This document shows positions 27,615 to 56,254 of a DNA stretch of 64,000 nucleotides, in pieces; position 1 is the stretch's first letter, and each line of letters begins with the position of its first letter. The position numbers and the translations under genes were made by a program. The stretch comes from Planctomycetaceae bacterium (GTDB taxonomy: Bacteria; Planctomycetota; Planctomycetia; Pirellulales; UBA1268): the NCBI GenBank assembly GCA_902629495.1, contig CACORA010000004.1, positions 15,048 through 79,047 of the forward strand, in the 5' to 3' direction. The notes under the pieces were generated by a model. It searched no databases. It saw only the letters and a list, made by a program, of their open reading frames with translations, and was not told the DNA's origin.

Positions 27615-27790
27615 AATTTTGAGGCCCTGTTACAGTACTCGCTGGATCGTCTGGCATTTACCTAGGTTATCGCTGTTGTATCTACGAGGCATACATTAGA
27701 AGGCTAGCGAATGATATCCTGACAGTTCGATTTTCTTGCATCACATATTCGTATCGTGAGAGAGAGATTTTTGAAGAAGTGGTTTGAGTG

Positions 27791-30700
27791 ATGAAAGATT
27801 CTAAAAGTGATCAACGCTTGCGAGTGATTGTACCAATAATAGCTAACGTTGGATTACTCAGTATTTTTCTGCTTTTTTTGGCCGTGTATTTTCTGAACAC
27901 GAGGTCCAGCGTAGAAGACGTACCAGAAACACGACAAGAAGCCATCGCACTGATTAAGGAAGCAAATAGGGCTGTCGGGCTTTTAGAGAACCATTCGTTG
28001 GATCAAGCGGTTCCACTGTTGGAACAAATTGCAGAGTCGTTGCCAAAGAATGTGTTCACGAGGCAGAACCTTGCGGTGGCAGCCGTACTGGCGTTCTTTG
28101 ATGAACCAACTGATAGTGTGCGTCTGGATCATGCGAAGCAAAGAATACGTGAATTGGGCCAAACGAATGTTGAGGGGCGAGTAGAGAATTGGTTGTGGGC
28201 AATCATTTCTATGCTTGCTCAGGACAGCACGAAAGCCAAGCAGATGTTTTTGAGCATCATTCAAGAACAACCGGAGCAGGCAGCTGGATGGTACGGATTA
28301 TGGCGGGCTCAGGAGATGGGCGAACATCAGTTGTTAGAAAAGCTAGAGACGTTGGATCAAGCAATCCAAATCGCACCATCAAATATCTGGCTTCATATTG
28401 AATGGATGCGGGTGATCGCAAAGGATCCAGAATACTATGCAGATCATATCGAGTTGCCAGAGCAGATTGAATCATGTTGGCATGCCATCGCACCCTATTC
28501 AAAAACAATCAAGACCTTCACCAAAATCGATCTTCGTGTATTTCTCAGCGAGTCTATTCAAGCAGCAGAAGAAGGACAGTGGTCACGAGTATCTGCTCGC
28601 CTTTTTGGAATCGCAAATGTACTCACCCCCCAAAGTGAGTTGGATCGTCGAAGAGTGAGCCCTCATCCATTGGAGTTTGTATGTGAACCATTTGGTGAAT
28701 CGATGCTGAAACAGTATGGGCTGAGTGAGTCTATTGATCATGCAGCAATTGCTGTTCAGTTTGACTTCAATGAAGAACTATCGATCAATGATATTGGAGA
28801 CTCGAAAACATGTCTTCTCGAAGATATGAATCTTGATGGTTCTCTTGATCTGATTACTGTGTTTGATTCAAAGTTAGTGGTGTGGAGTCAGCACAATGAA
28901 GGTTGGCAGATGCTCTGTGAGTCTGTCCTGCCAGAGGGAACGGTTGGTGCGATTGCAGTGGATCTGGACCTTGATTTTGATGAGGCAAGGCGCGCCGTAC
29001 AGTCAGTATTTCCTTCACCAAGAGAAGAAGAGCAACAACAATCTCTCTCGCAGAATGTGAGCAAAAACTGCCCGGCAGCGGATCTCGATCTGGTCGTTTT
29101 TGGTGCTTCTGGAATTACATGTCTTGAAAATATCTACCACGAGGGTGAGGGGCGTGTCCTTCAGCCGTTTGACTTTCCTGTGCCTGAGCAAGACGCTGTC
29201 ACATCCGTTTGTCCAGTTGATCTTGATGCCGATGGATTCATCGATCTGGTAATCGGCACACAAGATGAATTACAGGTTTTTACAAGTCTGGGGAGTGCAG
29301 GCTTTCGCAGGGAAGCATTCAAAGGCAGTACGCGCAGACTTGGTTCGTTGCAAGAAATTGAATCAGTTGATTTTGACCATGATGTGGATATCGATCTTAT
29401 AGTGCTCGGAAAAAATGCAGTTGGTTGGTTCGAAAATTTACGTCATGGCCAGTTTCGCTTTCATAGTCTTTCACCAGTTGCTGGTGAAGCGGGTTCTGTT
29501 GAAGTGATAGATGTAAATATGGATTTTGACTGGGACGTTGTCGTTGGAGGAACGACAGGTCTGAGCTGCTTTCTTTCTCAGGGATCTCAGGAAACACCCA
29601 TGAGTGCCCGAAAGATGATCAGCATCAATGAGGAACCTGTTTTAGATCTTGGAAGTTTTGACTATGACAATGATGGAATCATTGATTTGCTTATCAGACA
29701 TCCAGACTCAGTGACGACAGCAAGGGGTCTTTCAAATGGTGGATTTCATTTCACAAATGAATCTGCAAATGACTTACTCAGCAGTGTTTGGCCGAACGAG
29801 TCCATGAAAACATTCGATGTAGGCGATCTCGATCGTGATGGAGATATTGATATCATGGCGCTGGGTGGTGCAGGCATTGCCATGTTCAGGAATCAGGGCG
29901 GCAATACGAATCATTGGATTGATATTGCGTTGGAGGCCCAGCAAGTTAAGGGAGAAGGTTTTGCACCAAGTGGCCGGGTCAATGCGAATGGACTCGGTAG
30001 TCGAGTTGAAATTCGTGCAGGTGACTTGAGCCAACTATATAACGTGCAAAGGCGAGTCACACATCTTGGTCTTGGACATCGAGAGACTGCTGATGTCGTT
30101 CGTGTCGTTTGGCTGAATGGTGTACCACAAAACATCGTTTCTCCACCTGTTGATATTGTTGTGTGTGAACAGCAGGTTCTTCTTGGATCTTGTCCATACC
30201 TGTATGTATGGAATGGATCTCACAATGTTTTTGTTACAGACCTTCTGTGGGCGGCTCCCATAGGACTACAGTATCGAGAAAATGAGCTTATGCCATTTAG
30301 ATCATGGGAGCATCTCAAAATATCAGGATCGAAACTCGCTCCACTTAACGATGCGTATGTGCTTCAAGTTACTGAAGAACTGTGGGAGGCAGCGTATTTT
30401 GATTCTGTGAAACTCACAGCCGTTGACCATCCTCATGGAGTAGAAATTTTCTCAAATGAGAAAGTCGGTCCAGCAGCGATTGCTGCTTTTGGCATTCATA
30501 CTGTTCGTTCCCCGGTCTGGCCTGTTGCAGCAAAGGATGATCGTGGCCATGATATTTTGAACGAACTTCTTCAACAGGATGAAAAATATCCCCCGAATCG
30601 AGAACGCCAACGGCGGCAGGGGCTGCTTGAGCTACATGCAGTCGAGCTTGATTTGGGGTCAGTCGTATTTGAGCCGAAAGACAGCATAAAACTGTTTTTG

Positions 30701-31489
30701 ACTGGTTGGACTTTTCCGACAACAGTGGGCATCAATCTTGCACTTGATCGTGATCCGGCTCTTGGAGTTCCTCATCCACCGTCTGTTTCTATTCCGGATG
30801 GAAAAGGAAAATGGAAAACAGTTATCCCGTTTATGGGTTTTCCAGGTGGAAAAACAAAAACAATTGTTGTTGACCTTACCGGTTTTCTTAAGGAGGAAGA
30901 TCCTCGGGTACGAATCGAGACAAGTATGGATATCCGCTGGGATCAGGCTTTTTTCTCAGTTGGCAAGGAGTCAGACGAATTTCAACTTGCAGAATTGCCG
31001 CTCGTGTCGGCCGATCTCCACTATCGAGGTTTTTCGCGTGTGATTCGTGATGGTTCAGATGGTCCAGAGCGATTTGACTATCACACCATATCAACGAACG
31101 AAAAATGGCCCCCCATGTTGGGCAACTTTACGCGCTACGGTGATGTGCGAACGTTGATCGAAACATCAGATGATCAGTTAGTCATTATGGGGGCTGGCGA
31201 TGAGATGACGCTCGTTTTTGATACAGGTACCCCCTGCCCCCCAGGCTGGAAGCGAGATTTTATTCTCTCAAGTGTTGGTTGGGATAAAGATGCAAATCTT
31301 GCAACGGTGGAGGGCCAAACAACGGAACCATTTCCGTTTCGTGGTATGAATCAATATCCACCGTTAATGGATGACAACCCACATGAATCAGAGGCGATAC
31401 AAAGAATCAACGATCGTTTTCAGACCCGCCGACAGAGTGATGGTTTTTGGCGAACCATTCAACGTCAAGCTGTGCACGGTGTTCAATGA
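27791..31489 (+). CDS. Giant TPR-VCBS-UnbV protein with C-terminal extension
   Basis: A GTG lies just before the ATG at 27791; from the ATG the product has 1,232 residues. One membrane segment (about 15-38) is followed by a TPR-like helical region (about 55-270), VCBS repeats (about 330-720; for example DLDADGFIDLVIG, DYDNDGIIDLLI, DLDRDGDIDIMALGG), an ASPIC/UnbV domain (about 725-800; RVNANGLGSRVEIR) and a C-terminal region of about 430 residues beginning CPYLYVWNGSHNVFVTDLLW. I recall this extension from some Acidobacteria/Chloroflexi UnbV proteins, but it has no function. The protein is anchored by its N-terminus and mostly outside the cytoplasm. It is encoded opposite the second UnbV gene. 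Confidence 0.8.
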   Translation: MKDSKSDQRLRVIVPIIANVGLLSIFLLFLAVYFLNTRSSVEDVPETRQEAIALIKEANRAVGLLENHSLDQAVPLLEQIAESLPKNVFTRQNLAVAAVLAFFDEPTDSVRLDHAKQRIRELGQTNVEGRVENWLWAIISMLAQDSTKAKQMFLSIIQEQPEQAAGWYGLWRAQEMGEHQLLEKLETLDQAIQIAPSNIWLHIEWMRVIAKDPEYYADHIELPEQIESCWHAIAPYSKTIKTFTKIDLRVFLSESIQAAEEGQWSRVSARLFGIANVLTPQSELDRRRVSPHPLEFVCEPFGESMLKQYGLSESIDHAAIAVQFDFNEELSINDIGDSKTCLLEDMNLDGSLDLITVFDSKLVVWSQHNEGWQMLCESVLPEGTVGAIAVDLDLDFDEARRAVQSVFPSPREEEQQQSLSQNVSKNCPAADLDLVVFGASGITCLENIYHEGEGRVLQPFDFPVPEQDAVTSVCPVDLDADGFIDLVIGTQDELQVFTSLGSAGFRREAFKGSTRRLGSLQEIESVDFDHDVDIDLIVLGKNAVGWFENLRHGQFRFHSLSPVAGEAGSVEVIDVNMDFDWDVVVGGTTGLSCFLSQGSQETPMSARKMISINEEPVLDLGSFDYDNDGIIDLLIRHPDSVTTARGLSNGGFHFTNESANDLLSSVWPNESMKTFDVGDLDRDGDIDIMALGGAGIAMFRNQGGNTNHWIDIALEAQQVKGEGFAPSGRVNANGLGSRVEIRAGDLSQLYNVQRRVTHLGLGHRETADVVRVVWLNGVPQNIVSPPVDIVVCEQQVLLGSCPYLYVWNGSHNVFVTDLLWAAPIGLQYRENELMPFRSWEHLKISGSKLAPLNDAYVLQVTEELWEAAYFDSVKLTAVDHPHGVEIFSNEKVGPAAIAAFGIHTVRSPVWPVAAKDDRGHDILNELLQQDEKYPPNRERQRRQGLLELHAVELDLGSVVFEPKDSIKLFLTGWTFPTTVGINLALDRDPALGVPHPPSVSIPDGKGKWKTVIPFMGFPGGKTKTIVVDLTGFLKEEDPRVRIETSMDIRWDQAFFSVGKESDEFQLAELPLVSADLHYRGFSRVIRDGSDGPERFDYHTISTNEKWPPMLGNFTRYGDVRTLIETSDDQLVIMGAGDEMTLVFDTGTPCPPGWKRDFILSSVGWDKDANLATVEGQTTEPFPFRGMNQYPPLMDDNPHESEAIQRINDRFQTRRQSDGFWRTIQRQAVHGVQ

Positions 31490-31725: not shown

Positions 31726-33624
31726 CTAGTCGGAAGCAGAAGTATCTAAAGCGTTTTCTCGCTGTATCACATGGACATGATCGGCTACCAGTTGAGTGTG
31801 TATAGAGACATCACCATTTTGCCAATAGATCGTGATGGTACCGGTGTCTTTATTTTCGCCGAGACCAAATGTGACAGGCAGTTCACTCTGAGATTGATAG
31901 CCGCGCGTTGGATTGACGCGACGGGTCTGGACCTCCATTGATCCATCGTTCTTCTCGCGAGTGAGTACCACTTTTGCGCCGATGGCACCCTGATTATTAC
32001 TGTTGTCCGATAGCTTGAGTCGAATCCAATGATGTCCAGTGTGTTGGTCGTTACGGAGTAACCTTGGTGACCCCCCGCTTGCCGTAAGCAATACGTCCAC
32101 ATCTCCATCGTTATCAATATCAGCGATTGCAAGGCTGCGCCCAACCATCGGCCTCGCAAAATCCTCTCCCGTATGTGAGGCCGGGACTGGTAGAAATTCA
32201 GTTGTATGCTCAATACCACAGTTCCAGTACAGACGCGGAGGTTGTTGATAAGTCTGTGTTTTTTGAACTCGATTAATATCTTCCTCTAAATGTCCATTTG
32301 CTGAAATCACATCAAGTCGTCCATCAAGATCGATATCTACAAAAGCAACACCAAATGTCAGTTCCAGCCGAGTCGGTGGGCCAAGGCCATTGAGAATTGC
32401 ATCATCACGAAATTGGAGTTGTTCGCCACCTGATACGTATAACGCAGTCATCTCATTGGCAAAGTTGCCAATGAGAATCCCAATATCACGATCATTGCGA
32501 AAGTGAGAGACGTCAATACCCATGGCACCTCGGGCTTTTCCTTCAATATCAAAAGCAACCCCGGCCAGACCGCCAATTTCTTGGAAGGTGCCATCTTTTT
32601 TGTTGTGGAAAAGAAAGTTCTGAACGGTGTCGTTTGCAACAATAATATCCATCCATCCGTCGTCATCAAAGTCTTCAAAAGTGACTCCAAGAGACTTTGC
32701 CAACGGATTGTTGGTGGCTGGATTTCGAATCTGAATACCAGCTGGCTGTGAGATATCTGTAAAGGTGCCACTGCCGTTATTGAGGTAGAGGCGAGCAAAT
32801 GTACCAGCAAAATTTTGAGGGCGTCCATATGCCCGTTCACCTCCGACAAGCCGAAAGTCTTGACTTCGATCAGAGTCACGCGACCACTCTACGTATGAGC
32901 ATACGAATAAATCGAGATCATCATCATTATTGATATCGATAAAACCACAGCTTGTACTCCACGTGTCCTGTGGGCCAGACACCCCAGCCTTTTCAGTAAT
33001 ATCTTCAAACTGCAGGTTGCCGAGATTACGATAGAGACGGTCCGGCCCAACGCATGAAATAAAAAGATCTGTGTGCCCATCTCCATCAATGTCTGCGCAC
33101 GCGAGGCCGGTGCCGTATCCAGAAACATCCAGACCACTCCCCTCGGTGGTATTTTTGAATCGACCAGTACCGTCGTTGAGATAAATGTTTACAAGGGAGC
33201 TCTTTGAGCCAGTGTTGGTGTCCCAAGGCCACTGCGATCCGTTAACAAGGATAATGTCTTGATCACCGTCATGATCAATATCCAAAAAACCACAGCCGCC
33301 TCCCATTGTTTCTGGTAAAAGCTTTTCACCAGCAGCACCATTCTCATGGACAAAATCGATGCCCGCTTCAGCGGTGATATCAAGGAACGGAACATTCGGA
33401 ATACGTACGTTTGGTACCTCGCGTCGGTGAGGAAGAAGAATAGGTGTTGACTTGATGTCTGGCGTTTCAGGTTGCGGCTGAAGATACCACCACGCAAGGC
33501 TTGCTATGACGATCACAGTCAAAATCACAAGGAGTGAGGCCCGAAAGGCAACACCAATAATCTGATCATCTGAATCGGTTGAGTGAGTTGCCGAGTGAGT
33601 AGGTGTTTTGTCTTGGGGGCACAT
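31726..33624 (-). CDS. CRTAC1-like VCBS/UnbV protein, membrane-anchored
   Basis: The 632-residue product has one membrane segment (about 27-48) and then the standard CRTAC1 layout: FLDITAEAGIDFVHENGA, GGGCGFLDIDHDGDQDIILVNG, several DxDxDGxxD repeats (DIDGDGHTDLF, DFDDDGWMDIIVANDT, DIDLDGRLDVISANGH, DIDNDGDVDVLLT) and a C-terminal ASPIC/UnbV domain (HHWIRLKLSDN, GAIGAKVVLT, YQSQSELPVTFGLG, IYWQNGD). AAGG precedes the ATG at 33624. It starts 33 bp after the pentahaem-TPR cytochrome gene on the same strand and is probably in one operon with it. A calcium-dependent extracellular scaffold is likely; no catalysis is evident. Confidence 0.85.
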   Translation of the reverse strand: MCPQDKTPTHSATHSTDSDDQIIGVAFRASLLVILTVIVIASLAWWYLQPQPETPDIKSTPILLPHRREVPNVRIPNVPFLDITAEAGIDFVHENGAAGEKLLPETMGGGCGFLDIDHDGDQDIILVNGSQWPWDTNTGSKSSLVNIYLNDGTGRFKNTTEGSGLDVSGYGTGLACADIDGDGHTDLFISCVGPDRLYRNLGNLQFEDITEKAGVSGPQDTWSTSCGFIDINNDDDLDLFVCSYVEWSRDSDRSQDFRLVGGERAYGRPQNFAGTFARLYLNNGSGTFTDISQPAGIQIRNPATNNPLAKSLGVTFEDFDDDGWMDIIVANDTVQNFLFHNKKDGTFQEIGGLAGVAFDIEGKARGAMGIDVSHFRNDRDIGILIGNFANEMTALYVSGGEQLQFRDDAILNGLGPPTRLELTFGVAFVDIDLDGRLDVISANGHLEEDINRVQKTQTYQQPPRLYWNCGIEHTTEFLPVPASHTGEDFARPMVGRSLAIADIDNDGDVDVLLTASGGSPRLLRNDQHTGHHWIRLKLSDNSNNQGAIGAKVVLTREKNDGSMEVQTRRVNPTRGYQSQSELPVTFGLGENKDTGTITIYWQNGDVSIHTQLVADHVHVIQRENALDTSASD

Positions 33625-33657: not shown

Positions 33658-36561
33658 TCAGGGTTCATTGGCTGGCAGAATTTCAAGGATATCAGAGTTT
33701 GAGAAACCGGGGGCTCCTTCTCGTTGGAGGGGGTAGATGGCAATGGCTTCAGAAGCATGATTCGCTGCAGGATACCGTTCACGAGCAAGCTGTACCGCCC
33801 GATCAGATGCATTGTCATCTCGTTTGTACTTACTGTGGAGTGCCCGATGGTGGGTTGCGGCATCCTCATTGCCAAGTTCACTGTAGATTTGTGAAAGATT
33901 GTAGTGGGCCATGACATTCTCAGAATCGACAGTAATTGTCTTTTCAAATTCTTGTGCAGCTTGTCGAAGCAACTGTTGTTTCTCTTGACGAGCGGAAGGG
34001 CTTCGAAGTCTTCGTGAACGATCATAGAGGGTAAGGGCCAAAAGGTTTCGCACCTCATAATCAAGACTAAAGTCAAAACCACGAGCACGCATGTCTGATG
34101 TTTGATCTTCTAAAACGCTTCGAAAGTTAGACTCTGCTTGTTCAAGATTGCCTTGCTGGCGATTCACTTGTCCAGATAGCCATGCCAAAGTCCAAGGAGG
34201 TGCAGAAGGAGATCGATATGATTCTGCTCTGGCAAGAGCGTCAGCAGCTTCATCAATTCGACCTTCAGCAAGATATACACGAGCAAGATTCATTGGGCCA
34301 TCAAAACGATCAAGGGCTTCAACACGATGAAAGGCCTCTTCGGCCTGTCTTAATTCAGCTTTCCCCTTCAGTAAAAGTCCAATTCCAAAGTCATTCCATC
34401 GTTCCCATGTGTCAATGTGTGTTTCTTTTGGATCTGTTTTATTGTCGGCATGTGCATCAGCATCAGTGTGGGTGGGGGGCAGTATGGTAAACGTGATGGT
34501 GTCCTCAGCAAGCGTGGTAATTGGAAGATGGTTTGAGTACGGAGCATCTCCGTGCTGATCGAATTGAACCGGATCAGCAGGCCGTGTATTTTGTGCTGCG
34601 AATTCAAGAAATGTTGAGTCAAATTTCCGATATTGGAGTTTTACTCGGATAGTCATTGCTCCTGTAATTCCTTCAGGGAGCGTCAGGCCGTAGTGAACTG
34701 TCCAAGCAGCACCTGGTGGTATCTGGTGGTTGTAGAGAGGTACAAAAATATCTTGTACGTTTCGACGATCGATTCGTTTTCCATTTCGATCTAACATAAA
34801 TACGTTGACATAATGCGCCCAAGGGTCGACAGCATTTCCTTTGGTGGGGTCCAGCGCTCCGCTCCGCCCAATGATCTGACCATTGTGGAGAACTTCTACA
34901 TCTAACCAGATCTCATTTGAATCGGTTGTTCCTTGTGTGAGGTGATGACCGAGGGTAAGTGTGCGAATGACTGTTTCGAGAACATAGTCCTGACCGGATT
35001 TGAGTGATGGAATAGTTGGTCGAAGTGGAGCAATCAATGGGGCATCGTTTGCTGATCCTGTTCGGATGCCAAACACATCGACTCGGGTGATCTCCTTAAG
35101 GAATTCCTGATGGTCAGCAACGAGTTCAGGCCGCCCAAGAAGTGATGGAACCCCCGTGTTTGCTCCAAGAAAAAGGTGATCATGAATAGTTGGATATGTG
35201 AGGGAATCACGAATGCGTGCACCAAAGTCTGACGACTGAGTCAATGGCATATGGCAGGTATTACAGCTTGTACTAGCGTTTGCTGGGTAATAGAAACTCC
35301 GGGCTCCGTGCCCGGATACACCCGATAAAAGGAAGGAATCGTAGTGATTCTGGCCTCGGAGAAAATCCTTGTAGTGATTGAGTTCACCAGGAATACTCAC
35401 TTTGTGACAAACCGAGCAGAACTCAGCACTCCTGTGAAAATCCTTGAGGAATGTTTTCCGATGCATTCCTGGTTTTGCTTTTACCAATTGGGCGTTGACC
35501 CACTGAAGCCATTCATTGTTGCTCTTTGCAAAAGGGTAATGAAGAGGCTCTTCAATCGTGTAATCAGCGTTTCCTTGAGTACTGTTTACATGCGTAATGG
35601 CATGGCATGTTGTGCAGGTAATACCAGCATGAGCTGTCAGGTCATTGACGTCGTCATAATCGAAGTTGTCAAAAGAACCACTAAAAAAAGGTACTGGATC
35701 ATGACAGCCCGCACACCATCTTGCAGCTTGAAGGTCACCGTCCCGCCTGAAGGATACGTCACGTGTTTCTCGGACACTTGCAAGATAGAGAGGATTATTG
35801 AATGAGCTAAAGTGGTGGGCACTGCCTTCCCAACGAGCATGTGTATCGGCGTGGCATCTGCGGCAATAGTCGTCCATCATGAGTGTGTCAGCCGGGATAT
35901 AATTACCCGTTGTTGTTCGCGCTGCAGACGGCTCGAAGTATTGTGCACCTTGTTCAGGACCTTTTTCGTGCCAACGACGAGGGTCCTGTGTATGAACAAT
36001 AACAATCGAAAGCACAGTGATTGCTGCAACTGACAGGTAGCCCGCGCCCAAGCGCCAGCGAATGCGAGGCCCAGCTAAACGGTGGAGCCAGTACAGCCAG
36101 CACGCTCCGAGTGGTGTTCCGACATGTGCCCAATAGACAATCTTTGTAGAGTTGGGAAAGAGTATTTCTGCGTTGATGATGCGTAGTCCGACAAGCAGAG
36201 CACCTGAAAAAAGAGCAAGTAGCGACGTGCCAAAAAGTGCATAACCAACACGAACAGCCCGACGGTTTTTGCGATGTCTGGTTGCAGCCATATGAATGAC
36301 CGCGAATACAATAAAGGGAATAAGGAGTACTGTTCCAAGAACCAGATGACCAAGAAACATCCATTGGTAGAACCAACTTTGCCATGTATCAAGAGTGAGC
36401 CATTCAATAAAAGTAATGGTTCCAAGATATGCAGAATTGACGCCAAGGACAGCCAGTATTGAGAAAACAGCTGTAAGGAGTATGCGTAATCGTGGGCCAA
36501 CGGCAGGCCTTCGTTTTTGTACTGATGACGTTGGAGAAAGGACAGAAGGATCCATAGACAC
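33658..36561 (-). CDS. Membrane-anchored pentahaem cytochrome c with TPR tail
   Basis: The start is GTG at 36561 or ATG at 36555 (967 or 965 residues). The first 190 residues contain about five membrane segments. A periplasmic part holds five CxxCH haem motifs: CRRCH, CAGCH, CTTCH, CSVCH and CNTCH, spread in the style of cytochrome c554/multihaem proteins. A beta-rich region follows, and from about residue 700 there are TPR repeats (WNDFGIGLLLKGKAELRQAEEAFHRVE; NVMAHYNLSQIYSELGNEDAATHH). It should carry electrons between the quinone pool and periplasmic partners. Its gene immediately precedes the UnbV gene, so the two probably work together. Confidence 0.8.
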   Translation of the reverse strand: MSMDPSVLSPTSSVQKRRPAVGPRLRILLTAVFSILAVLGVNSAYLGTITFIEWLTLDTWQSWFYQWMFLGHLVLGTVLLIPFIVFAVIHMAATRHRKNRRAVRVGYALFGTSLLALFSGALLVGLRIINAEILFPNSTKIVYWAHVGTPLGACWLYWLHRLAGPRIRWRLGAGYLSVAAITVLSIVIVHTQDPRRWHEKGPEQGAQYFEPSAARTTTGNYIPADTLMMDDYCRRCHADTHARWEGSAHHFSSFNNPLYLASVRETRDVSFRRDGDLQAARWCAGCHDPVPFFSGSFDNFDYDDVNDLTAHAGITCTTCHAITHVNSTQGNADYTIEEPLHYPFAKSNNEWLQWVNAQLVKAKPGMHRKTFLKDFHRSAEFCSVCHKVSIPGELNHYKDFLRGQNHYDSFLLSGVSGHGARSFYYPANASTSCNTCHMPLTQSSDFGARIRDSLTYPTIHDHLFLGANTGVPSLLGRPELVADHQEFLKEITRVDVFGIRTGSANDAPLIAPLRPTIPSLKSGQDYVLETVIRTLTLGHHLTQGTTDSNEIWLDVEVLHNGQIIGRSGALDPTKGNAVDPWAHYVNVFMLDRNGKRIDRRNVQDIFVPLYNHQIPPGAAWTVHYGLTLPEGITGAMTIRVKLQYRKFDSTFLEFAAQNTRPADPVQFDQHGDAPYSNHLPITTLAEDTITFTILPPTHTDADAHADNKTDPKETHIDTWERWNDFGIGLLLKGKAELRQAEEAFHRVEALDRFDGPMNLARVYLAEGRIDEAADALARAESYRSPSAPPWTLAWLSGQVNRQQGNLEQAESNFRSVLEDQTSDMRARGFDFSLDYEVRNLLALTLYDRSRRLRSPSARQEKQQLLRQAAQEFEKTITVDSENVMAHYNLSQIYSELGNEDAATHHRALHSKYKRDDNASDRAVQLARERYPAANHASEAIAIYPLQREGAPGFSNSDILEILPANEP

Positions 36562-36627: not shown

Positions 36628-36684
36628 ATGGTTGAACTTTCTATTAGAATAGGTGAACAAATAGTTTGTTTTTGCACAAAGTAA
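36628..36684 (+). other. 18-codon open frame ahead of the synthetase gene
   Basis: A tiny frame (MVELSIRIGEQIVCFCTK) ends 48 bp before the synthetase start. It has AAGGTG upstream but at a poor distance. Ending in CxC-T-K next to a possible modification locus makes it worth noting, as leader peptide or tiny substrate, but a chance frame is the more likely explanation. Confidence 0.15.
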
Positions 36685-36732
36685 ATAGAGTTTAGGGATT
36701 CACTGAATTTTGTGTTTGAGGAGGTGTTGATT

Positions 36733-38097
36733 GTGAGCCATGTTGAGCCGATTGAGCGAGTCGTTGACCTTCTAGATCCAACAGCCAACATTATTCTAAA
36801 CATGTCAGTTGAAGAGGCCCTTGCAAGAGTGGGTACAGGCCAACCCCATGCTGTTCGGGCAATAGATGGTCAGTTTGCTTTGGTGCACCGCAATGGAAAA
36901 CAGATTCGTATGGCCCGATCCATAGGAAGGCCACTTCGTTACTTTATTGCGAAAAAGGCAGAAGGACCAATGCTTGTTACAGCAGATCGCATCGATGCGA
37001 TTGCTGCATTTCTTGAGAAAGAAGGACTCATCGACCAGTTTCATCCGTCGTATACCAGAATGGTACCAGCACATTATGTGACGGAATTAGCACTTGTGGG
37101 GTGCCCCGATCCAAATCCAACGACCACTCGCTTCTTTACGCCAAAGAGAAACAAATGGTCAACAGATTTAGATGAAATTGGTTTGCACTACATGACAGTA
37201 TTACAAAAAGAGATCAATCACTGGCTTGATACACTCAATGCAAAGGAGCCCATAGGAGTATTTTTTTCTGGAGGCATTGATAGTGGCTCACTCCTTGTTC
37301 TTCTCCATCACAGCCTTATGGCCCGAGGTGAATCACCACAGCGTCTCAAGGCCTTTACGCTTTCAATCCATGAGGAGGGAGCAGATCTACTGCAGGCAAA
37401 AGAATTTTTACAGCGAGTGAATATGGAGTATCTTCTTGAGGTCATTAAGGTTGCACCAGCAGAAATAAATATAGCTGACGCCATTCAAACAATTGAGGAT
37501 TACAAGCCGTTGGATGTTCAGGCAGCTGCAGCGACGCTGGCCCTCTGTCGATCTATCAGAAAGCGTTATCCATCATGGCGATATTTGATTGATGGGGATG
37601 GAGGTGACGAAAACTTGAAGGACTATCCGATTGAAGAGAATCCAGAACTTACCGTGCGCAGTGTTCTCAATAATTTGATGCTGTATCAAGAAGGTTGGGG
37701 GGTGGATGCAATCAAACACTCACTCACATATTCTGGTGGCCAAAGCCGTGGTCACGTCCGAACGTATGCACCTGCCACAACATTGGGCTTTCGTGGCTTT
37801 AGTCCCTACGCATTACCAAATGTGATTGAGGTTGCAGAAGGTATTCCTTTTATTGAGCTTACCGATTGGGATCACAGTCGTCTCTACGCTCTGAAAGGTG
37901 AGATAATACGTCGTGGTATTCGTCAGCTCACGGCCATAGACATACCAATTTTTGAAAAACGAAGATTTCAAGAAGGAGTGGCCACAACAGGTACGTTCGA
38001 GACATTATTTCCAAATGACCCATCGATTTACCGACAGATTTTTCATGATATTTGGAGTCAGGATGTGGCAGAGAATAGCTTGCGTGGAGCAGTGTGA
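36733..38097 (+). CDS. Asparagine-synthetase-like amidotransferase without glutaminase Cys
   Basis: I placed the start at GTG 36733 because a strong GAGGAGG (36718-36724) lies eight bases upstream; the product is 454 residues. The N-terminal third resembles a class II glutaminase (Ntn) domain (DGQFALVHRNGKQIRMARS..GRPLRYF), but there is no Cys at position 2, so glutamine hydrolysis is not expected. The synthetase half has the ATP pyrophosphatase motif SGGIDS (179-184), DGDGGDE (287-293) and a late FEKRRFQEG matching the conserved Lys region. By analogy with beta-lactam synthetase, it may adenylate a carboxylate and form an amide with a substrate amine or free ammonia. The 3' end overlaps the convergent flavoprotein gene by 40 bp. 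Confidence 0.8.
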   Translation: MSHVEPIERVVDLLDPTANIILNMSVEEALARVGTGQPHAVRAIDGQFALVHRNGKQIRMARSIGRPLRYFIAKKAEGPMLVTADRIDAIAAFLEKEGLIDQFHPSYTRMVPAHYVTELALVGCPDPNPTTTRFFTPKRNKWSTDLDEIGLHYMTVLQKEINHWLDTLNAKEPIGVFFSGGIDSGSLLVLLHHSLMARGESPQRLKAFTLSIHEEGADLLQAKEFLQRVNMEYLLEVIKVAPAEINIADAIQTIEDYKPLDVQAAAATLALCRSIRKRYPSWRYLIDGDGGDENLKDYPIEENPELTVRSVLNNLMLYQEGWGVDAIKHSLTYSGGQSRGHVRTYAPATTLGFRGFSPYALPNVIEVAEGIPFIELTDWDHSRLYALKGEIIRRGIRQLTAIDIPIFEKRRFQEGVATTGTFETLFPNDPSIYRQIFHDIWSQDVAENSLRGAV

Positions 38098-39548
38098 GCA
38101 AAACGATTTTTTGTCGAGAGTTGAAAGAAGCCGAGGCGGTCAAAGTCAGAAAGACTGTGTCGCAGTTGACTCAAGCAGTAAGATTCCGATATGTGGCCTT
38201 GTACTGAAGCATGAATGAGTGTGCAGGATTCCGTGAGCCGTTCGCGGAGGGTGATGTTATCTGCTGCGAGGAATCGTGTGTCTTCACAGGCCGCGTCTGA
38301 TAGTAGCGTTTTCTCAAATTGGATTGTTGCCAAGAAGTACAGTGATGACGCTGCGGAAAAAAGCTCAAAATGGTTGATTGCTGCATAGGCAGCGCTGACA
38401 AGCTGATCAATAAATCTGATTTCGTCAATAACGTTTTGGCCGTACTGATCCCAAGCAGGTGTTGAATGTTCATCATGCAAGAGGAGTGAAGCCAGGCGTG
38501 CCACTCCATGGATGCTGTGCGCAATTCCGGTGCTGTGCAATGGATCGATAAAGCCACTTGTTGTTGGCAGCATAGCCCAGCCCGGCCCAGAACTTTCTGA
38601 CCAAAGTCGCTGAAGTGATCCAGTTTGATAGAGGTGAGGAATGGCTTGGCAGTTCTCGAAGAGCGACCATAAAGACGGATAGCATTGCAGTCGATTTTTC
38701 CAATACCCTTCAAGATCATGATTAATATTCACCTGACGGTTTTCTACAAGTCCGATACTGGTTCGACCGTCATCAAATCGTAGGAGCCAGACCCAGCCGT
38801 CATCGATTAGATGATGCTGAGCGGCGTCATCTGAACGAAAGGGGTCGATTGTTGATGAGTCACCATTAGCAAGTTGTCGTGCATCCCAGCTCTCTACTCC
38901 ACGGAAGTGCCCGTACAAGGCAGATGTAGTCGTCGACAATGTCTTATCAAGACGGGAAAGACCAAGTTTGTCCCCCATCAGCCCACCATGACCAGTTGCA
39001 TCAATGATGATTCGAGCACAATCGTTTTGGTATTGATCTGTGCCAGTGTGTCGCCAGCTTACACGCCACCCGTTGTTCTCTCGAACAATCTGATTGACAT
39101 GGCAGTTTTCCATTGCATGAACGCCAGCGTCACAGCTCTGTCTGAAAAGATATGTGTCAACATCTGAGCGAAGCCAGTGTGTATCGCTTTCTGCATCGCA
39201 TGCGCTAGCAGCTACAAGAAGTGAATCTTTACCACAGGAATGACCGTAACACTCGCCTTTACGATGTTTGAAGTATGAAAACCCACGCTTCTTTCCACAG
39301 ACTAGGTGAGGTAATTCTTGTTTCCATCTTCCATACATTGACAATGATGCAAGCTGCGGAAGGGCATACCGTTTGGCGAGGTCAGCAATCACAATGTCAG
39401 CTACTGGCGTGCTGGATTCACCAATACTGAAACGGGGGTGAGTGTGACGATCAAGCATGAACACACGCATGCCCTGAGCAGCGAGAATCCAGCCGAGAAT
39501 ACTGCCAGAAAAGCTGCTCCCAAGAATTAGGACGTCATATTGTTTCAT
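38058..39548 (-). CDS. Flavin-dependent halogenase-like oxidoreductase
   Basis: ATG at 39548 overlaps the radical SAM stop codon (ATGA), so I prefer it to the GTG at 39563; the product is 496 residues. The N-terminus binds FAD (VLILGSSFSGSILGW), and HPRFSIGESSTPVAD is the segment seen in tryptophan-halogenase-like flavoproteins. DDGWVWLLRFDDGRTSIG occupies the place of the halogenase W-x-W-x-I-P motif, but the Ile-Pro is replaced by Leu-Arg. PTTSGFIDPLHSTGIAHS is the second FAD motif. It is therefore a halogenase-family flavoprotein that may be an oxygenase, dehydrogenase or reductase instead of a halogenase. No flavin reductase partner is seen nearby. Confidence 0.8.
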   Translation of the reverse strand: MKQYDVLILGSSFSGSILGWILAAQGMRVFMLDRHTHPRFSIGESSTPVADIVIADLAKRYALPQLASLSMYGRWKQELPHLVCGKKRGFSYFKHRKGECYGHSCGKDSLLVAASACDAESDTHWLRSDVDTYLFRQSCDAGVHAMENCHVNQIVRENNGWRVSWRHTGTDQYQNDCARIIIDATGHGGLMGDKLGLSRLDKTLSTTTSALYGHFRGVESWDARQLANGDSSTIDPFRSDDAAQHHLIDDGWVWLLRFDDGRTSIGLVENRQVNINHDLEGYWKNRLQCYPSLWSLFENCQAIPHLYQTGSLQRLWSESSGPGWAMLPTTSGFIDPLHSTGIAHSIHGVARLASLLLHDEHSTPAWDQYGQNVIDEIRFIDQLVSAAYAAINHFELFSAASSLYFLATIQFEKTLLSDAACEDTRFLAADNITLRERLTESCTLIHASVQGHISESYCLSQLRHSLSDFDRLGFFQLSTKNRFAHTAPRKLFSATS

Positions 39549-40495
39549 AGATGACACCCACACGATGATGAAGTTGCTGGTAGTGAGTCTTGGGTGAGGT
39601 TCATGGTTTGTAAGCGTTGCAGTCGACGTGGTCGGCAGATGTCACACGTGCCCTCCAATGTCGTGAAGTCCCATAAATCAACGGTAACAACAACATCAGA
39701 GTTATTGAATTGGTTTAGAACAGTCTCAGCACACAATTCAACTTGCCGAGCGTCCGGAACACAGTTGTGTTTTTCGTTCAGAGTACTTTCAACATAACCA
39801 TTTCCTGACCGTAAAGGCACAATGCTGACATGCCGTACGCCACATGTCACTGCAAATGCGGTGGATTCGATTGCGGATACTAAGGCGTCCTCTTTTGAGA
39901 GGCCTGGTACGCCGAGCAGAATAAATGCCCGCACATCAATATTCCATGTTCTCAGTAAGGTAGATGCTTTTGCGAAATCATCAGCAGTCATTTTCTTATT
40001 GAGATTTTTTAGTGCAGTTGGATGGATGGTTTCCAGTCCCATCGCTACTTCAAGTTGACCAGAGCACGCATCACGAAATTCCTTAATCACCGAAGTTGTA
40101 AGGGATGGATGATTTTCTACAACAATGCGATCAAATGGAGAAATTAATTGAGCGATAAGGGGAAGGTCTTCTGATGGCACACAGCGTGCATCAAAAAAAT
40201 TACTTCCGTTGTAGAGTTTGATCCATGTGGGTTTGAGCTCAGAGGAGACGTGCAGTCCATGTTGAATTTGTTGAGGAATAGCTCCAGGCGGTGTTGCTTC
40301 ACGAAGCGTATTTTTCCAGAGATCACACATGGAACATGTAAAACGGCACTCACTTCCAGCAAGAATCATTACTCGTGTTGGAATGGAGCATTCTGCTGAA
40401 GAAATTTCTAGTTCATCCCAGACGGCAACTGGGTGCTCCAAGGAAATAGGATTACGGGTTCCACGAAGATTCCTGATTTCAAAACTTGAAGCCAC
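39545..40495 (-). CDS. Radical SAM enzyme with C-terminal Cys clusters
   Basis: The 316-residue product (GTG start) carries the radical SAM motif C-x3-C-x2-C at residues 50, 54 and 57 (CRFTCSMCDLW). IKLYNGSNFF and VENHPSL, then EVAMGLETIHP and RAFILLGVPG, follow the layout of the Elp3/archaeosine-synthase-like radical SAM group. The C-terminus has four more cysteines, CDIC (284, 287) and CGC (312, 314), which could hold an auxiliary iron-sulfur cluster or zinc. It starts a two-gene transcript with the flavoprotein (4-bp overlap) and is divergent from the FAD oxidoreductase at 40692. Substrate unknown. Confidence 0.85.
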   Translation of the reverse strand: MASSFEIRNLRGTRNPISLEHPVAVWDELEISSAECSIPTRVMILAGSECRFTCSMCDLWKNTLREATPPGAIPQQIQHGLHVSSELKPTWIKLYNGSNFFDARCVPSEDLPLIAQLISPFDRIVVENHPSLTTSVIKEFRDACSGQLEVAMGLETIHPTALKNLNKKMTADDFAKASTLLRTWNIDVRAFILLGVPGLSKEDALVSAIESTAFAVTCGVRHVSIVPLRSGNGYVESTLNEKHNCVPDARQVELCAETVLNQFNNSDVVVTVDLWDFTTLEGTCDICRPRRLQRLQTMNLTQDSLPATSSSCGCHL

Positions 40496-40691
40496 GTTAT
40501 TAAGCCATCAATAAGAGTTCGAAAAAGCCTCTATAGAAAAGGCAATTGTGAAATAACTATTTTGCTTAGGCTATCATCTTGTACATTAAGAGTTATTCGT
40601 TTGAGTGATTATTGTCGTTACTTTGTTTGCTATATGGGTGTACGATACGCACAATATGCGATTGAAAGAGGGCCCTCGGGAGAACGTCACG

Positions 40692-42983
40692 ATGACGAAT
40701 AGTTTACGGTTCTGCGTAGGTAATTTGTTTACTCTGATTGGGCTATGGGGCATTTCCAGCGTTGCGGCCACTGTTTTGGTGGAAGCCGAGAGCTTTGATG
40801 ATCCCGGTGGCTGGAAACTCGACACACAATTTATTCGTCAAATGGGCTCACCATACATGCTTGCCCATGGTCTTGGTCGCCCTGTGTCAGATGCTTCGAC
40901 GAAAGTTGTGTTTCCTGAAAGTGGTGAGTATCACATCTTTGTCCGAACAAAAGACTGGGTTGCACGTTGGGATACTCCTGGGACACCAGGAAGATTTCAG
41001 GTATGTATCAATGGAAAACCGATTCGTGAAACATTTGGTACCAAAGGAAGAGAGTGGGGTTGGCAGCGTGGGGGTGTTGTGCATGTGCCTGCTGGCGAGG
41101 CTACTGTAACACTTCATGATCTCACAGGTTTTAATGGCCGCTGCGATTGCATAGTTTTTTCTACAAGTGATGTAGTTCCGCCAAATGACTCGGGTATTCT
41201 TGCAGACTGGCGACGGACGATGTTGGGTCTTCACGGCAAGCCAGACTCCAAAGGTCCATATGATCTTGTCGTGGTTGGCGGAGGATATGCGGGCATGGGT
41301 TCAGCGATATCTGCTGCTCGCATGGGACTCAAAGTTGCATTAATCCAAGACCGACCTGTACTTGGAGGCAATGGGTCAAGTGAAGTACGTGTATGGGCGA
41401 AAGGGCTCATTCGTCGTGGAAACTATCCAAGGATCGGAGAGATCATTGAGGAGTTTTGTGACCATGCAAAAAAGAGCCCTGGAACGTATGAAGAGTTTGG
41501 AGATAACAAGAAAGAAAAGCTGATCCGCTCAGAATCAAATATCGATCTTTTTCTCAACACACATGCCTTTGCAGTTGAGTGCGATGGCCAGACAATTACT
41601 GCGATCAACTGTTTTGATACCCGAACCAGCCACGAACTAAGATTTACAGGTGCATTGTTTTGTGATGCAACAGGACATGCCACAGTAGGTTTTCTTGCAG
41701 GTGCAGAAACCGTGATGGAACCAAAGGGAAGAATGGGCATGAGCAATATGTGGGCATGGGCTGAAAGCGCTACGGAGCATCCATACCCCGAAACTCCATG
41801 GGCCTTACCACTGACCATGACAGATTTTCCCTATCCGCGCGACCATCATGGGCAATGGTTCTGGGAAAGTGGTTTTGATAAAGATCCACTTGCTGATGCG
41901 GAAGGTATTCGTGACTGGAATCTTCGGGCAGTATTTGGAGCGTTCAATGCCATGAAGAATGGTGACGGTTCCGAAGAGCACAAAAATGCTGTGTTGACAT
42001 GGGTGGCATACATTGGCGGACCTCGTGAGAGCCGACGAATCCTTGGTGATGTTGTGCTCCGTCAGGAAGATATCGTTGAGAAGCATCAGTTTTCTGATGG
42101 GTGTGTGCCATCGACATGGTCAATTGATTTGCATTATCCAAAACAAGAATACGCCAAGAAGTTTCCAGACAACCCATTTATCTCAATTGCTGTTCATGAT
42201 CGTCGTGTTGATCGTAGTTATGGATATCCTGTTCCCTATCGATGTTTTTACTCAAAAGATATCAGCAATCTTTTTATGGCTGGACGATGTGTGTCCGTAA
42301 CGCATCAGGCCTTGGGGACTGTGCGCGTTATGAAAACATGTGGAATGATGGGTGAAGTTGTTGGCAAGGCTGCAAGTGTTGCTATCAAGCATGGCACAAC
42401 CCCACGCGGTGTATACGTTGATCACTGGCACGAGATGGATGAGCTCTTGCAACTGCCAGGGAAGGCACGTCGCGTATCACCGTCATCACCGATTGAGATT
42501 CCTGCAGATGCGTTGCCTCTTGCTGGGCCAGACGGGCCGATAACAGGTTTGGATCCTGCAAAGCTGGCACATGATAAGTCAGCAGTTGTTCGTGATGATC
42601 GTGATGCTGTTCGAGAAGGAAACTGGAAAGAAGGGCAGGGACTGAAGGGGTATGTGGCACACGGTTACCACTATGCAAGTCCGGATAGTGGCTCACGTGC
42701 GACATATGAACTGAGAGCTCCGTCTGCTGGTTCCTATGAAGTGCTTGTGTCTTGGCAATCGCATGAAAATCGTGGGTCGTCTGTACCTGTTGTGGTCAAG
42801 GCAAACAACAGCCAGTCAACAGTCCGTTTTAATATGAAGGAAGCAGCTCCTTTGAATAACCACTTCGGTTCTGCTGGTCACGTCAGTCTTGAGAAGGGAG
42901 GTCGGTGTGTGGTGGTCATTAGCACTGAAAATGCAGGAGGATTAGCCCACGCCGATGCTGTACTCCTTGTGCCTGTGCAATAA
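40692..42983 (+). CDS. Secreted FAD-dependent oxidoreductase with carbohydrate-binding-like ends
   Basis: ATG at 40692 is preferred over the GTG at 40605: GGGAG lies upstream and a signal peptide then opens the 763-residue product (FCVGNLFTLIGLWGISSVAA). Residues about 25-160 are a beta-rich domain (VLVEAESFDDPGGW, GEYHIFVRTKDW) like golvesin/CBM modules. An FAD domain of the PF12831 type follows (YDLVVVGGGYAGMGSAISAARMG, LGGNGSSEVRVWAKG). The last 130 residues form another golvesin-like domain (GSRATYELRAPSAGSYEVLVSW). It likely oxidises a sugar or glycan-linked substrate in the periplasm. First gene of a plus-strand group to 47414. Confidence 0.8.
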   Translation: MTNSLRFCVGNLFTLIGLWGISSVAATVLVEAESFDDPGGWKLDTQFIRQMGSPYMLAHGLGRPVSDASTKVVFPESGEYHIFVRTKDWVARWDTPGTPGRFQVCINGKPIRETFGTKGREWGWQRGGVVHVPAGEATVTLHDLTGFNGRCDCIVFSTSDVVPPNDSGILADWRRTMLGLHGKPDSKGPYDLVVVGGGYAGMGSAISAARMGLKVALIQDRPVLGGNGSSEVRVWAKGLIRRGNYPRIGEIIEEFCDHAKKSPGTYEEFGDNKKEKLIRSESNIDLFLNTHAFAVECDGQTITAINCFDTRTSHELRFTGALFCDATGHATVGFLAGAETVMEPKGRMGMSNMWAWAESATEHPYPETPWALPLTMTDFPYPRDHHGQWFWESGFDKDPLADAEGIRDWNLRAVFGAFNAMKNGDGSEEHKNAVLTWVAYIGGPRESRRILGDVVLRQEDIVEKHQFSDGCVPSTWSIDLHYPKQEYAKKFPDNPFISIAVHDRRVDRSYGYPVPYRCFYSKDISNLFMAGRCVSVTHQALGTVRVMKTCGMMGEVVGKAASVAIKHGTTPRGVYVDHWHEMDELLQLPGKARRVSPSSPIEIPADALPLAGPDGPITGLDPAKLAHDKSAVVRDDRDAVREGNWKEGQGLKGYVAHGYHYASPDSGSRATYELRAPSAGSYEVLVSWQSHENRGSSVPVVVKANNSQSTVRFNMKEAAPLNNHFGSAGHVSLEKGGRCVVVISTENAGGLAHADAVLLVPVQ

Positions 42984-43067
42984 TGTCAGCAGGCCAATAT
43001 TCTAGAGCATAGAATCGTTCACGGTACGTAAGACGTACGTTTTCATACTTGGGCTAAGGGGAAAAAT

Positions 43068-45734: not shown

Positions 45735-45739
45735 AAATA

Positions 45740-46585
45740 ATGGACCGCCAAGCTTTTCCCTGTATTGATGAACCGTATCGCTTGAGTCAGGATCATTGCC
45801 GACGTTTTCGTGAAGATGGTTTTGTGCATCTGTCGAATGTGTTTGATTCTGAGTCCTTGTTGTACTTTGAAAAAGAGATTACGAATCTGACGTTTCTCAA
45901 CAATCAGAATGCAGACGTTCCCATGCATAAGCGGGATACGTATTCACAGGCTTTTATCCAAGTCGGTAACCTTTGGACGAAGGGTGCAGTGGCAAGAGAA
46001 CTCACGTTTTCGCGCCGGCTTGCTCAGATTGCGGCAGAACTTCTTGGAACACGAGGCGTACGGCTGTGGCATGATCAGTCTCTTTATAAAGAGCCTGCCG
46101 GCGGGTTTACGCCGTGGCATGCTGATCAGCAGTATTGGCCGATGGCAAGTGCACTGTCGGTAACGGCGTGGATACCGTTGCATGCAGTTCCACTGGAGCA
46201 AGGTCCTCTGTCCTTTGGTCGTGGAAGTCATCGTAAACGAATTGGTCGAGAGCTTGCTATTTCAGATGATTCGGAGCGATTGATACGTCAAGCAATCGAT
46301 CAAGAAGGTATCGTAGAAGTAACCGAACCCTTTGCTGCTGGTGATGTTTCATTTCATCTTGGTTGGACGCTTCACCGTGCTGGTCCAAATACAACGTCTG
46401 AGCCACGAAAAGTCCATACAATTATTTATATGGATATCGACATGTGTCTTTCCAAACCAAAAAACCCCAACCAGCAACTAGACCATGAGAAATGGACACC
46501 ATCGACACACATCGGGGAGATAATGGATGACCCGCTGAATCCAGTACTCTTTGAACGGGTAGAGGATCCTGCGGGCGCTGACTAG
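45740..46585 (+). CDS. Phytanoyl-CoA dioxygenase family (PhyH) protein
   Basis: The 281-residue product is a typical PhyH-type Fe(II)/2-oxoglutarate oxygenase. The iron-binding H-x-D is in TPWHADQQYW, the distal His in LGWTLHRAGPNTT, and Arg in SEPRKVHTIIY can bind 2-oxoglutarate. Members hydroxylate small molecules or acyl chains in the cytoplasm. It begins five bases after the stop of the PHP hydrolase gene, with no good ribosome binding site of its own, so translation is likely coupled. No signal peptide is visible, unlike its operon partners, so it may act on the imported product. Confidence 0.85.
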   Translation: MDRQAFPCIDEPYRLSQDHCRRFREDGFVHLSNVFDSESLLYFEKEITNLTFLNNQNADVPMHKRDTYSQAFIQVGNLWTKGAVARELTFSRRLAQIAAELLGTRGVRLWHDQSLYKEPAGGFTPWHADQQYWPMASALSVTAWIPLHAVPLEQGPLSFGRGSHRKRIGRELAISDDSERLIRQAIDQEGIVEVTEPFAAGDVSFHLGWTLHRAGPNTTSEPRKVHTIIYMDIDMCLSKPKNPNQQLDHEKWTPSTHIGEIMDDPLNPVLFERVEDPAGAD

Positions 46586-55938: not shown

Positions 55939-56254
55939 GAGTATCTCCCACTGCCAATATTGTGGCCGAGTCTTTTGAATTGGACCATTAATGTACGACA
56001 AAAAAACGAATCAAACGTACGTTTGGGGGTATTACAAAGTGACATCTTCTCTAGAAAGGGAACGGGGACGGCACAGAATCGTTACAGTGCCCAAAAGACA
56101 CTTTGCTTATTTTGCCGTTTGAGAACCTTTTTTTGTCAAAAAGCATGACCACATCTTTTGCGGATGAGGTATCGCAGGTGTTTGAAACACGACTGCATAC
56201 AGCACACCGAGTTCTCTTGTCATCAATGCTCCCAAATGACATAAGCCACGACGA
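55939..56254. other. Intergenic: A2M upstream region with possible REP-like remnant
   Basis: No convincing gene is present. The A2M leader occupies the first part. At about 56053-56120 the sequence (agaaagggaacggggacggc and what follows) resembles the G-rich ends often found by REP/RAYT-type elements, and the minus-strand translation ends in SVPSPFPF, typical of such repeats. No transposase remains. This is pattern memory only and would need copies elsewhere in the genome. Confidence 0.25.
56012..56025. promoter_or_regulatory. Perfect 14-bp palindrome upstream of the A2M gene
   Basis: CAAACGTACGTTTG is its own reverse complement. It sits 74 bp before the A2M start and right after an A-run, a place where a dimeric regulator could bind. 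No regulator gene is nearby. Confidence 0.3.

Follow-up and report, generated by a model that had tools for sequence, protein, structure and literature searches.

Several described enzyme systems resemble parts of the locus analyzed here. The glutaminase nucleophile of asparagine synthetases is an N-terminal cysteine. Quinone-cofactor maturation (QhpD/QhpG, LodB, and GoxB) likewise relies on a radical S-adenosylmethionine (SAM) enzyme, namely QhpD in the QhpD/QhpG case, and a flavoprotein of the flavin-dependent halogenase superfamily. UnbU, an RnfD-like protein, is located in enediyne clusters. Among radical SAM enzymes, RaSEA acts on a lysine adduct to give archaeosine, as described in PMC11298593. 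The stretch of 64,000 nucleotides studied here (the window; Planctomycetaceae bacterium, assembly GCA_902629495.1, contig CACORA010000004.1, positions 15,048 to 79,047) harbors three adjoining genes, which encode an asparagine-synthetase-like ligase (ASN), a protein of the flavin-dependent halogenase family (FDH), and a radical SAM protein (RSAM). The three genes were found to constitute a co-conserved, uncharacterized enzymatic system, as the first-pass annotation of the window had supposed: across 533 genomes, ASN and RSAM are confined to one and the same set of 36, FDH nearly always accompanies them, and all three occur together at 46 of 80 RSAM loci. A literature search for the trio, its neighbors, and planctomycete halogenases, covering titles and abstract openings of open-licence papers, returned no description of the trio. 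PMC12424672 and PMC12715798, two papers on ammosamide, came up because of terms in common.

Co-occurrence was evaluated in genome sets sampled evenly per phylum around three central genomes (G040, G041, and G029), each reached via its RSAM locus; genomes at least 90% complete were requested, and completeness figures were not returned. Among the Planctomycetota, 5 of 118 genomes carry ASN; the count is 13 of 119 for the Acidobacteriota and 18 of 296 for the Bacteroidota, and in each phylum RSAM was detected in exactly the same genomes. Without the three centers, 33 such genomes remain (4/117, 12/118, and 17/295, respectively). The chance of an exact ASN–RSAM coincidence, if genomes were independent and with the centers included, is 6e-9, 1e-17, and 4e-29, values that are too small because of kinship and the centers; the three phyla nonetheless agree. 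FDH matched at E < 1e-80 in the same five Planctomycetota genomes, with one further weak match (5.6e-32) in G141, and was found in 12 of the 13 Acidobacteriota genomes. For the Bacteroidota, the locus itself includes FDH in 17 of 18 cases (L040 and 16 of the 17 other loci). Since the co-occurrence of ASN and RSAM is exceptionless in 533 genomes and FDH is nearly always along, the three genes form one unit, for the most part at a single locus and occasionally unlinked. That three enzymes of separate pathways merely adjoin by chance could be argued from the wide distribution of each superfamily, which is general knowledge, and from genomes in which FDH is unlinked: it lies ∼236 kb from the ASN–RSAM pair in G086 and ∼306 kb from it in G102, and the three genes are all on different contigs in G115. 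The fact that ASN and RSAM share 36/36 genomes of three phyla, together with a gene order that recurs in 41 of the 46 complete loci, makes this explanation scarcely credible. Co-conservation in relatives, on which the first-pass annotation had made its proposal depend, was thus found in both the neighborhood and the co-occurrence counts.

A profile search with RSAM, using one genome per species, gave 393 loci, of which the best 80 were analyzed; one best open reading frame (ORF) per locus was kept for each trio gene, and phylum names are those of NCBI for the organism in the record title. ASN was found in the examined flanks of 55 loci, FDH in those of 53. Many contigs are short; in the 31 loci where each flank of RSAM reaches 3.5 kb or more, ASN was present in 24, FDH in 25, and both in 23. 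The complete loci belong to Planctomycetota (18), Acidobacteriota (13), Gemmatimonadota (6), Bacteroidota (4), Verrucomicrobiota (2), Balneolota (1), and Myxococcota (1), with one lacking a phylum assignment, and include the named strains Fodinibius roseus DSM 21986 (L035), Mucilaginibacter sp. X4EP1 (L040), Rhodopirellula sallentina SM41 (L049), Aporhodopirellula aestuarii (L063), and Acidobacterium sp. S8 (L064). The suggestion of a planctomycete phylum-level system was therefore not borne out, as the trio is patchy within the Planctomycetota and its complete loci fall into seven named phyla. The usual order is co-directional, ASN>RSAM>FDH> (41/46). RSAM>FDH>ASN<, the order of the window, accounts for 4/46, and RSAM>ASN>FDH> for 1/46; the score of this single locus (L060) stems from an over-long frame, and visual inspection gives the usual order. 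The order of the window was also observed in L001, L002, L004, and L007, which form with it one clade of the ASN tree, so that a local rearrangement would be the simplest explanation for the convergent ASN seen in the window. Hence, the convergent orientation of ASN noted in the first-pass annotation holds for the window and represents a minority arrangement. The two overlaps it described were both seen: the RSAM stop and the FDH start at 39548 overlap as ATGA when the sequence is read directly, and ASN and FDH share a 40-bp tail-to-tail overlap at 38058–38097. Trees of the three proteins were built from the window and from the 39 loci at which each trio gene is full length; their pairwise distances correlate (r 0.69–0.81), these being linked genes compared without a control.

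ASN was found to match PF00733 (E 1.1e-14). Against TIGR01536, the model for glutamine-hydrolysing asparagine synthetases, it scored 54.9 bits, with a curated cut-off of 267.1. The ATP-site motifs of the AsnB fold are retained, E262 and K416 presumably being the equivalents of AsnB catalytic residues, and the glutaminase nucleophile is absent. The model of ASN aligned with beta-lactam synthetase and AsnB only from about their residue 40 onward; fold comparisons of ASN and RSAM were made against chosen PDB lists. The open frame begins at 36712, and its probable start, which is also the one given in the first-pass annotation, is the in-frame GTG at 36733, seven codons inside; an in-frame TAA at 36682–36684 leaves room for at most nine additional N-terminal residues. 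Asparagine synthesis was rejected as the role of ASN owing to the score below the TIGR01536 cut-off and the missing glutaminase cysteine; the family proposed in the first-pass annotation thus stands, and a glutamine-hydrolysing asparagine synthetase does not. Judged from its fold and residues, ASN is a beta-lactam-synthetase-like ligase in which an ATP-dependent amide-forming site appears to be kept. ASN was sought in 50 genomes with an RSAM locus (from 50 of the 80 loci) and found as a single copy in every holder (48/50), G012 carrying one gene split over two contigs; it was not detected in G008 and G019. In these 48 genomes, identity to the window copy was 53–74% across phyla; the lowest row of a separate alignment showed 51%. 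One protein, P0201, is a 594-residue ASN with an extra N-terminus, in which no known domain was apparent by eye, with no separate search made.

RSAM scored 24.8 bits against PF04055, under the curated cut-off of 29.5. However, its CxxxCxxC cysteines (C50, C54, and C57) are invariant and its best structural matches are radical SAM enzymes; by motif and fold, RSAM is a member of the radical SAM superfamily. The nearest named families are RaSEA, MnmL/YtqA, queuine lyase, and Elp3. Archaeosine synthesis was rejected as its identity, as the score against TIGR01210 (RaSEA) was 75.7 bits, far under the cut-off of 212.15, and was retained as a mechanistic analogy only.

FDH matches PF04820 (E 1.2e-8), and its nearest solved relatives by sequence are PltM (5.5e-43) and tetracycline 7-halogenase (2.3e-38), in agreement with the first-pass assignment, which was likewise correct for the radical SAM protein. 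Residue K92 of FDH aligns with Lys87 of PltM and is invariant in 25 alignment rows; the PltM K87A mutant is inactive according to PMC6424973. The motif FxxPxxSxG, which PMC8407142 presents as possibly common to all active flavin-dependent halogenases, reads FIDPLHSTG in the window. Relatives of FDH are sometimes annotated as “FADH2 O2-dependent halogenase,” an annotation with no test attached. The best NCBIfam match was QhpG (8.4e-17; 61.2 bits, cut-off 240), and GoxB and LodB were also matched, with all three scores far under the curated cut-offs.

We give an even chance to the proposal that ASN, RSAM, and FDH make up a pathway of three enzymes that leads to a small molecule, comprising the joining of an amine and a carboxylate, radical remodeling, and halogenation. 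As suggested by its fold and residues, ASN would adenylate a carboxylate with ATP and join it to an amine in the manner of beta-lactam synthetase, and ammonia from glutamine would not be supplied by an N-terminal domain of its own. The 5′-deoxyadenosyl radical of RSAM would attack the conjugate, by comparison with its relatives most likely at a carbon adjoining the nitrogen, leading to C–N cleavage or rearrangement analogous to the conversion of the lysine adduct by RaSEA. FDH, with FADH2, O2, and halide, would halogenate an electron-rich, probably phenolic ring. The order of the three steps is itself a part of the proposal. A small-molecule product appears most likely because no precursor peptide is evident, FDH retains the lysine of halogenases, and ASN belongs to the amide-forming ligases. 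The constancy of ASN across phyla suggests one conserved product rather than a diversifying antibiotic. The screen for a precursor covered 1976 ATG-started ORFs of 20–110 amino acids within 2.5 kb at 81 loci; the 25 most shared, which were the ones inspected, occur at 6–7 loci each and all lie inside the ASPIC, cytochrome, or RnfD-like genes described below. Anti-phage defense was also considered and rejected, as none of the three proteins matched a PADLOC family at E ≤ 0.01; PHROGs gave weak matches only (best E 8.1e-5).

Several observations weigh against a single halogenating pathway. The Acidobacteriota genome G254 (locus L159) carries ASN and RSAM with no FDH at E ≤ 1e-40, and no FDH lies within 3.8 kb beyond RSAM. 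The Bacteroidota locus L170, on a 4.5-kb contig, has no FDH either, the rest of its genome not having been searched for FDH. Neither partner was found in the examined flanks of 18 of the 80 RSAM loci. In five of these, each flank is 3.5 kb or longer; all five genomes carry ASN elsewhere. Only the best first-look candidates per genome were scored (RSAM 18 or 7, FDH 13, and ASN 5 in Bacteroidota), and misses are possible. The FDH family, to judge from sequence relationships, also covers hydroxylases and maturases (QhpG, LodB, and GoxB), so that halogenation is not certain. The GxGxxG motif, found in almost all flavoenzymes according to PMC8407142, is only GSSFSG in the window; 20 of 25 FDH rows preserve it, as counted by eye. 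In FxxPxxSxG, the FDH of L057 has A instead of P (1/25 rows). WxWxIP, which some flavin-dependent halogenases lack according to the same paper, is only WVWLLR in the window; because of this variant, FDH is called a halogenase-family protein and membership by activity is not claimed. Finally, the relatives of RSAM include tRNA and nucleobase enzymes, so that its substrate may be something other than a free small molecule. As for G254, it represents either a natural test of FDH dispensability or an assembly gap.

The affinity of RSAM to RaSEA, MnmL/YtqA, queuine lyase, and Elp3 favors a modification of nucleic acids or nucleobases, in which RSAM would act on tRNA or a 7-deazaguanine-type base and ASN would add the amine donor, as in ArcS/RaSEA. 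However, among 29 Pfam-annotated proteins at trio, ASPIC, or neighboring loci, a small sample with no genome-wide search, none was a tRNA-modification enzyme, and the only tRNA-related protein was a tRNA synthetase in L175. The patchy presence of the trio in 36/533 genomes would be unusual for a tRNA modification, and we know of no role for a flavin halogenase in tRNA or nucleobase modification. We consider this explanation quite improbable and retain the small-molecule pathway as the preferred reading.

Table 1. Positions of the trio genes and of other features in the window and, where a locus is named, in related loci.
Feature	Position	Strand	Description
ASN	36712..38097	+	Asparagine-synthetase/beta-lactam-synthetase-like ATP-dependent ligase; probable start 36733
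FDH	38058..39548	-	Flavin-dependent-halogenase family; frame opens at GTG 39563, probable ATG start 39548
RSAM	39545..40495	-	Radical SAM, RaSEA/queuine-lyase branch; conserved C-terminal CxxC and CxC
CYT	33658..36561	-	Five CxxCH heme motifs, cytochrome c554 domain (PF13435), TPR repeats, hydrophobic N-terminus; probable associated gene
ASPIC	31726..33624	-	CRTAC1-like FG-GAP/ASPIC-UnbV (PF13517, PF07593); probable associated gene
FG-GAP protein	27788..31489	+	PF13517, weak PF07593; weaker association with the module
Right-hand neighbors	40605-46585	+	FAD oxidoreductase with golvesin C-terminal domain, CehA/McbA-like hydrolase, PhyH oxygenase
Long open frame	49615-56001	-	∼2129 residues
NQR2/RnfD-like membrane protein	L051 14335-15198; L040 18061-18918; L161 11522-12394		Next to ASPIC
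Gene between ASN and RSAM	L167 8715-10238; L169 7478-9013; L174 7656-9116	opposite	Bacteroidota loci; Wzi-like capsule assembly protein in L174

As the first-pass annotation had stated, no other functional class lies between the three genes, although the cytochrome and ASPIC genes to their left may belong to the trio (Table 1). An ASPIC protein was found in the examined flanks of 28 of the 80 RSAM loci, in five named phyla, and CYT in those of 11. ASPIC was nearby at 8 loci against 0.92 expected in 27 genomes with ASPIC genes counted, which had been picked from 50 for long flanks; when five Acidobacteria were collapsed to one, the values were 4/23 against 0.69 (p 0.004), adjacency being taken from our own ASPIC profile and expectation from PF07593 counts, i.e., from different detectors. 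PF07593 was present in 27/27 trio genomes searched, which is weak evidence since it is also present in 88 of 118 Planctomycetota genomes (trio in 5). On the ASPIC tree, the label “beside trio” needs 8 changes as compared with 21 in shuffles, is spread over several clades, and is inflated by near-copies; frames outside 480–800 residues and four background rows duplicating near-trio rows were dropped, and the background rows, drawn more from trio genomes than from others, carry a bias. Among the Planctomycetota, the ASPIC subfamily of the window (E ≤ 1e-150, a threshold set after the gap was seen, with at most 10 candidates per genome scored) was found in 5/5 trio genomes and 16/113 others (Fisher p 1.2e-4, uncorrected for kinship).

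The excess of ASPIC genes beside the trio over the genome-wide expectation, and their presence in every trio genome searched, would also fit protein maturation, in which the trio modifies side chains of a secreted protein, e.g., the adjoining ASPIC/CRTAC1 protein, in the manner of QhpD/QhpG or LodB/GoxB quinone-cofactor maturation. The NCBIfam matches of FDH, with QhpG at the top and GoxB and LodB besides, point in the same direction, but all fall far under their cut-offs, and FDH keeps the halogenase lysine. ASPIC is moreover common without the trio, the ASPIC proteins beside the trio are scattered over several separate clades, and no small precursor ORF recurs within 2.5 kb among the most shared candidates. 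A ligase of the ASN fold has, to our knowledge, no role in quinone-cofactor maturation. Taken together, maturation is distinctly unlikely, and a pathway to a small molecule is preferred over it.

Of 16 regions, at least 9 have CYT next to ASPIC, a count in which the ORF filter can hide genes (L151 gave no ASPIC match). The pair is present in L144–L146, L148, L149, L152, L153, L155, and L156 as well as in the window; the L155 frame is truncated, with two heme motifs visible. It was also found in genomes without the trio (G157 and G084), and the redox module is therefore treated as associated, not as a proven part. We know of no described function for a pair of a pentaheme TPR cytochrome and a CRTAC1-like ASPIC protein. 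A homologue of the FG-GAP protein of the window lies beside CYT–ASPIC in L149. Among the relatives of the window, the partner of ASPIC is the pentaheme cytochrome, and in seven Acidobacteriota loci, L040, and the Bacteroidota locus L161, an NQR2/RnfD-like gene accompanies ASPIC. The product of the trio may act with a membrane or periplasmic redox module of this kind, in which the CRTAC1-like ASPIC protein is paired with either a pentaheme cytochrome or an RnfD-like protein. A more far-reaching version, in which a cross-phylum pathway under strong selection leads to one conserved halogenated small molecule that a periplasmic redox module (CRTAC1-like propeller with a multiheme or RnfD-like membrane protein) uses as a cofactor or diffusible electron carrier, is speculative and rather unlikely; if true, it would provide the first biochemical context for the ASPIC/UnbV family.

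The neighbors to the right of RSAM were rejected as trio members, as homologues of the FAD oxidoreductase were found at 2/80 loci and those of CehA and PhyH at 0/80 each. Neither Rfam models, applied to the window at gathering thresholds, nor a tRNA scan gave a match.

With three genes, mostly at one locus, and a single-copy ligase, the trio is a compact and well-bounded target, and halogenation, if true, would offer an isotope handle for locating the product. Compared with known systems, ASN is only 18–20% identical to beta-lactam synthetase (1m1z/1jgt) and AsnB (1ct9), lacks the N-terminal ∼40 residues including the position of the glutaminase cysteine, and, in contrast to beta-lactam synthetase systems, has no lactam or clavulanate gene among the annotated neighbors of the trio. 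The domain model of the ASPIC protein is named “ASPIC and UnbV,” and its position beside an NQR2/RnfD-like protein recalls UnbV/UnbU of the enediynes; unlike enediyne clusters, no polyketide synthase was present among the 29 Pfam-annotated proteins at or near trio or ASPIC loci, and an enediyne-related literature search gave nothing useful. Quinone-cofactor maturation differs in that the trio includes an ASN-type ligase and that no precursor gene was found near it among the most shared small ORFs. PltM and tetracycline 7-halogenase share the catalytic lysine and FxxPxxSxG with FDH, whereas WxWxIP is variant in FDH and its neighbors are unlike the pyoluteorin or tetracycline cluster. In comparison with RaSEA (TIGR01210) and queuine lyase (6p78), RSAM is bacterial, carries conserved C-terminal CxxC and CxC motifs, and lies beside ASN and FDH; the trio would add a glutaminase-free ligase and give the RaSEA/queuine-lyase branch of radical SAM enzymes a new partner.

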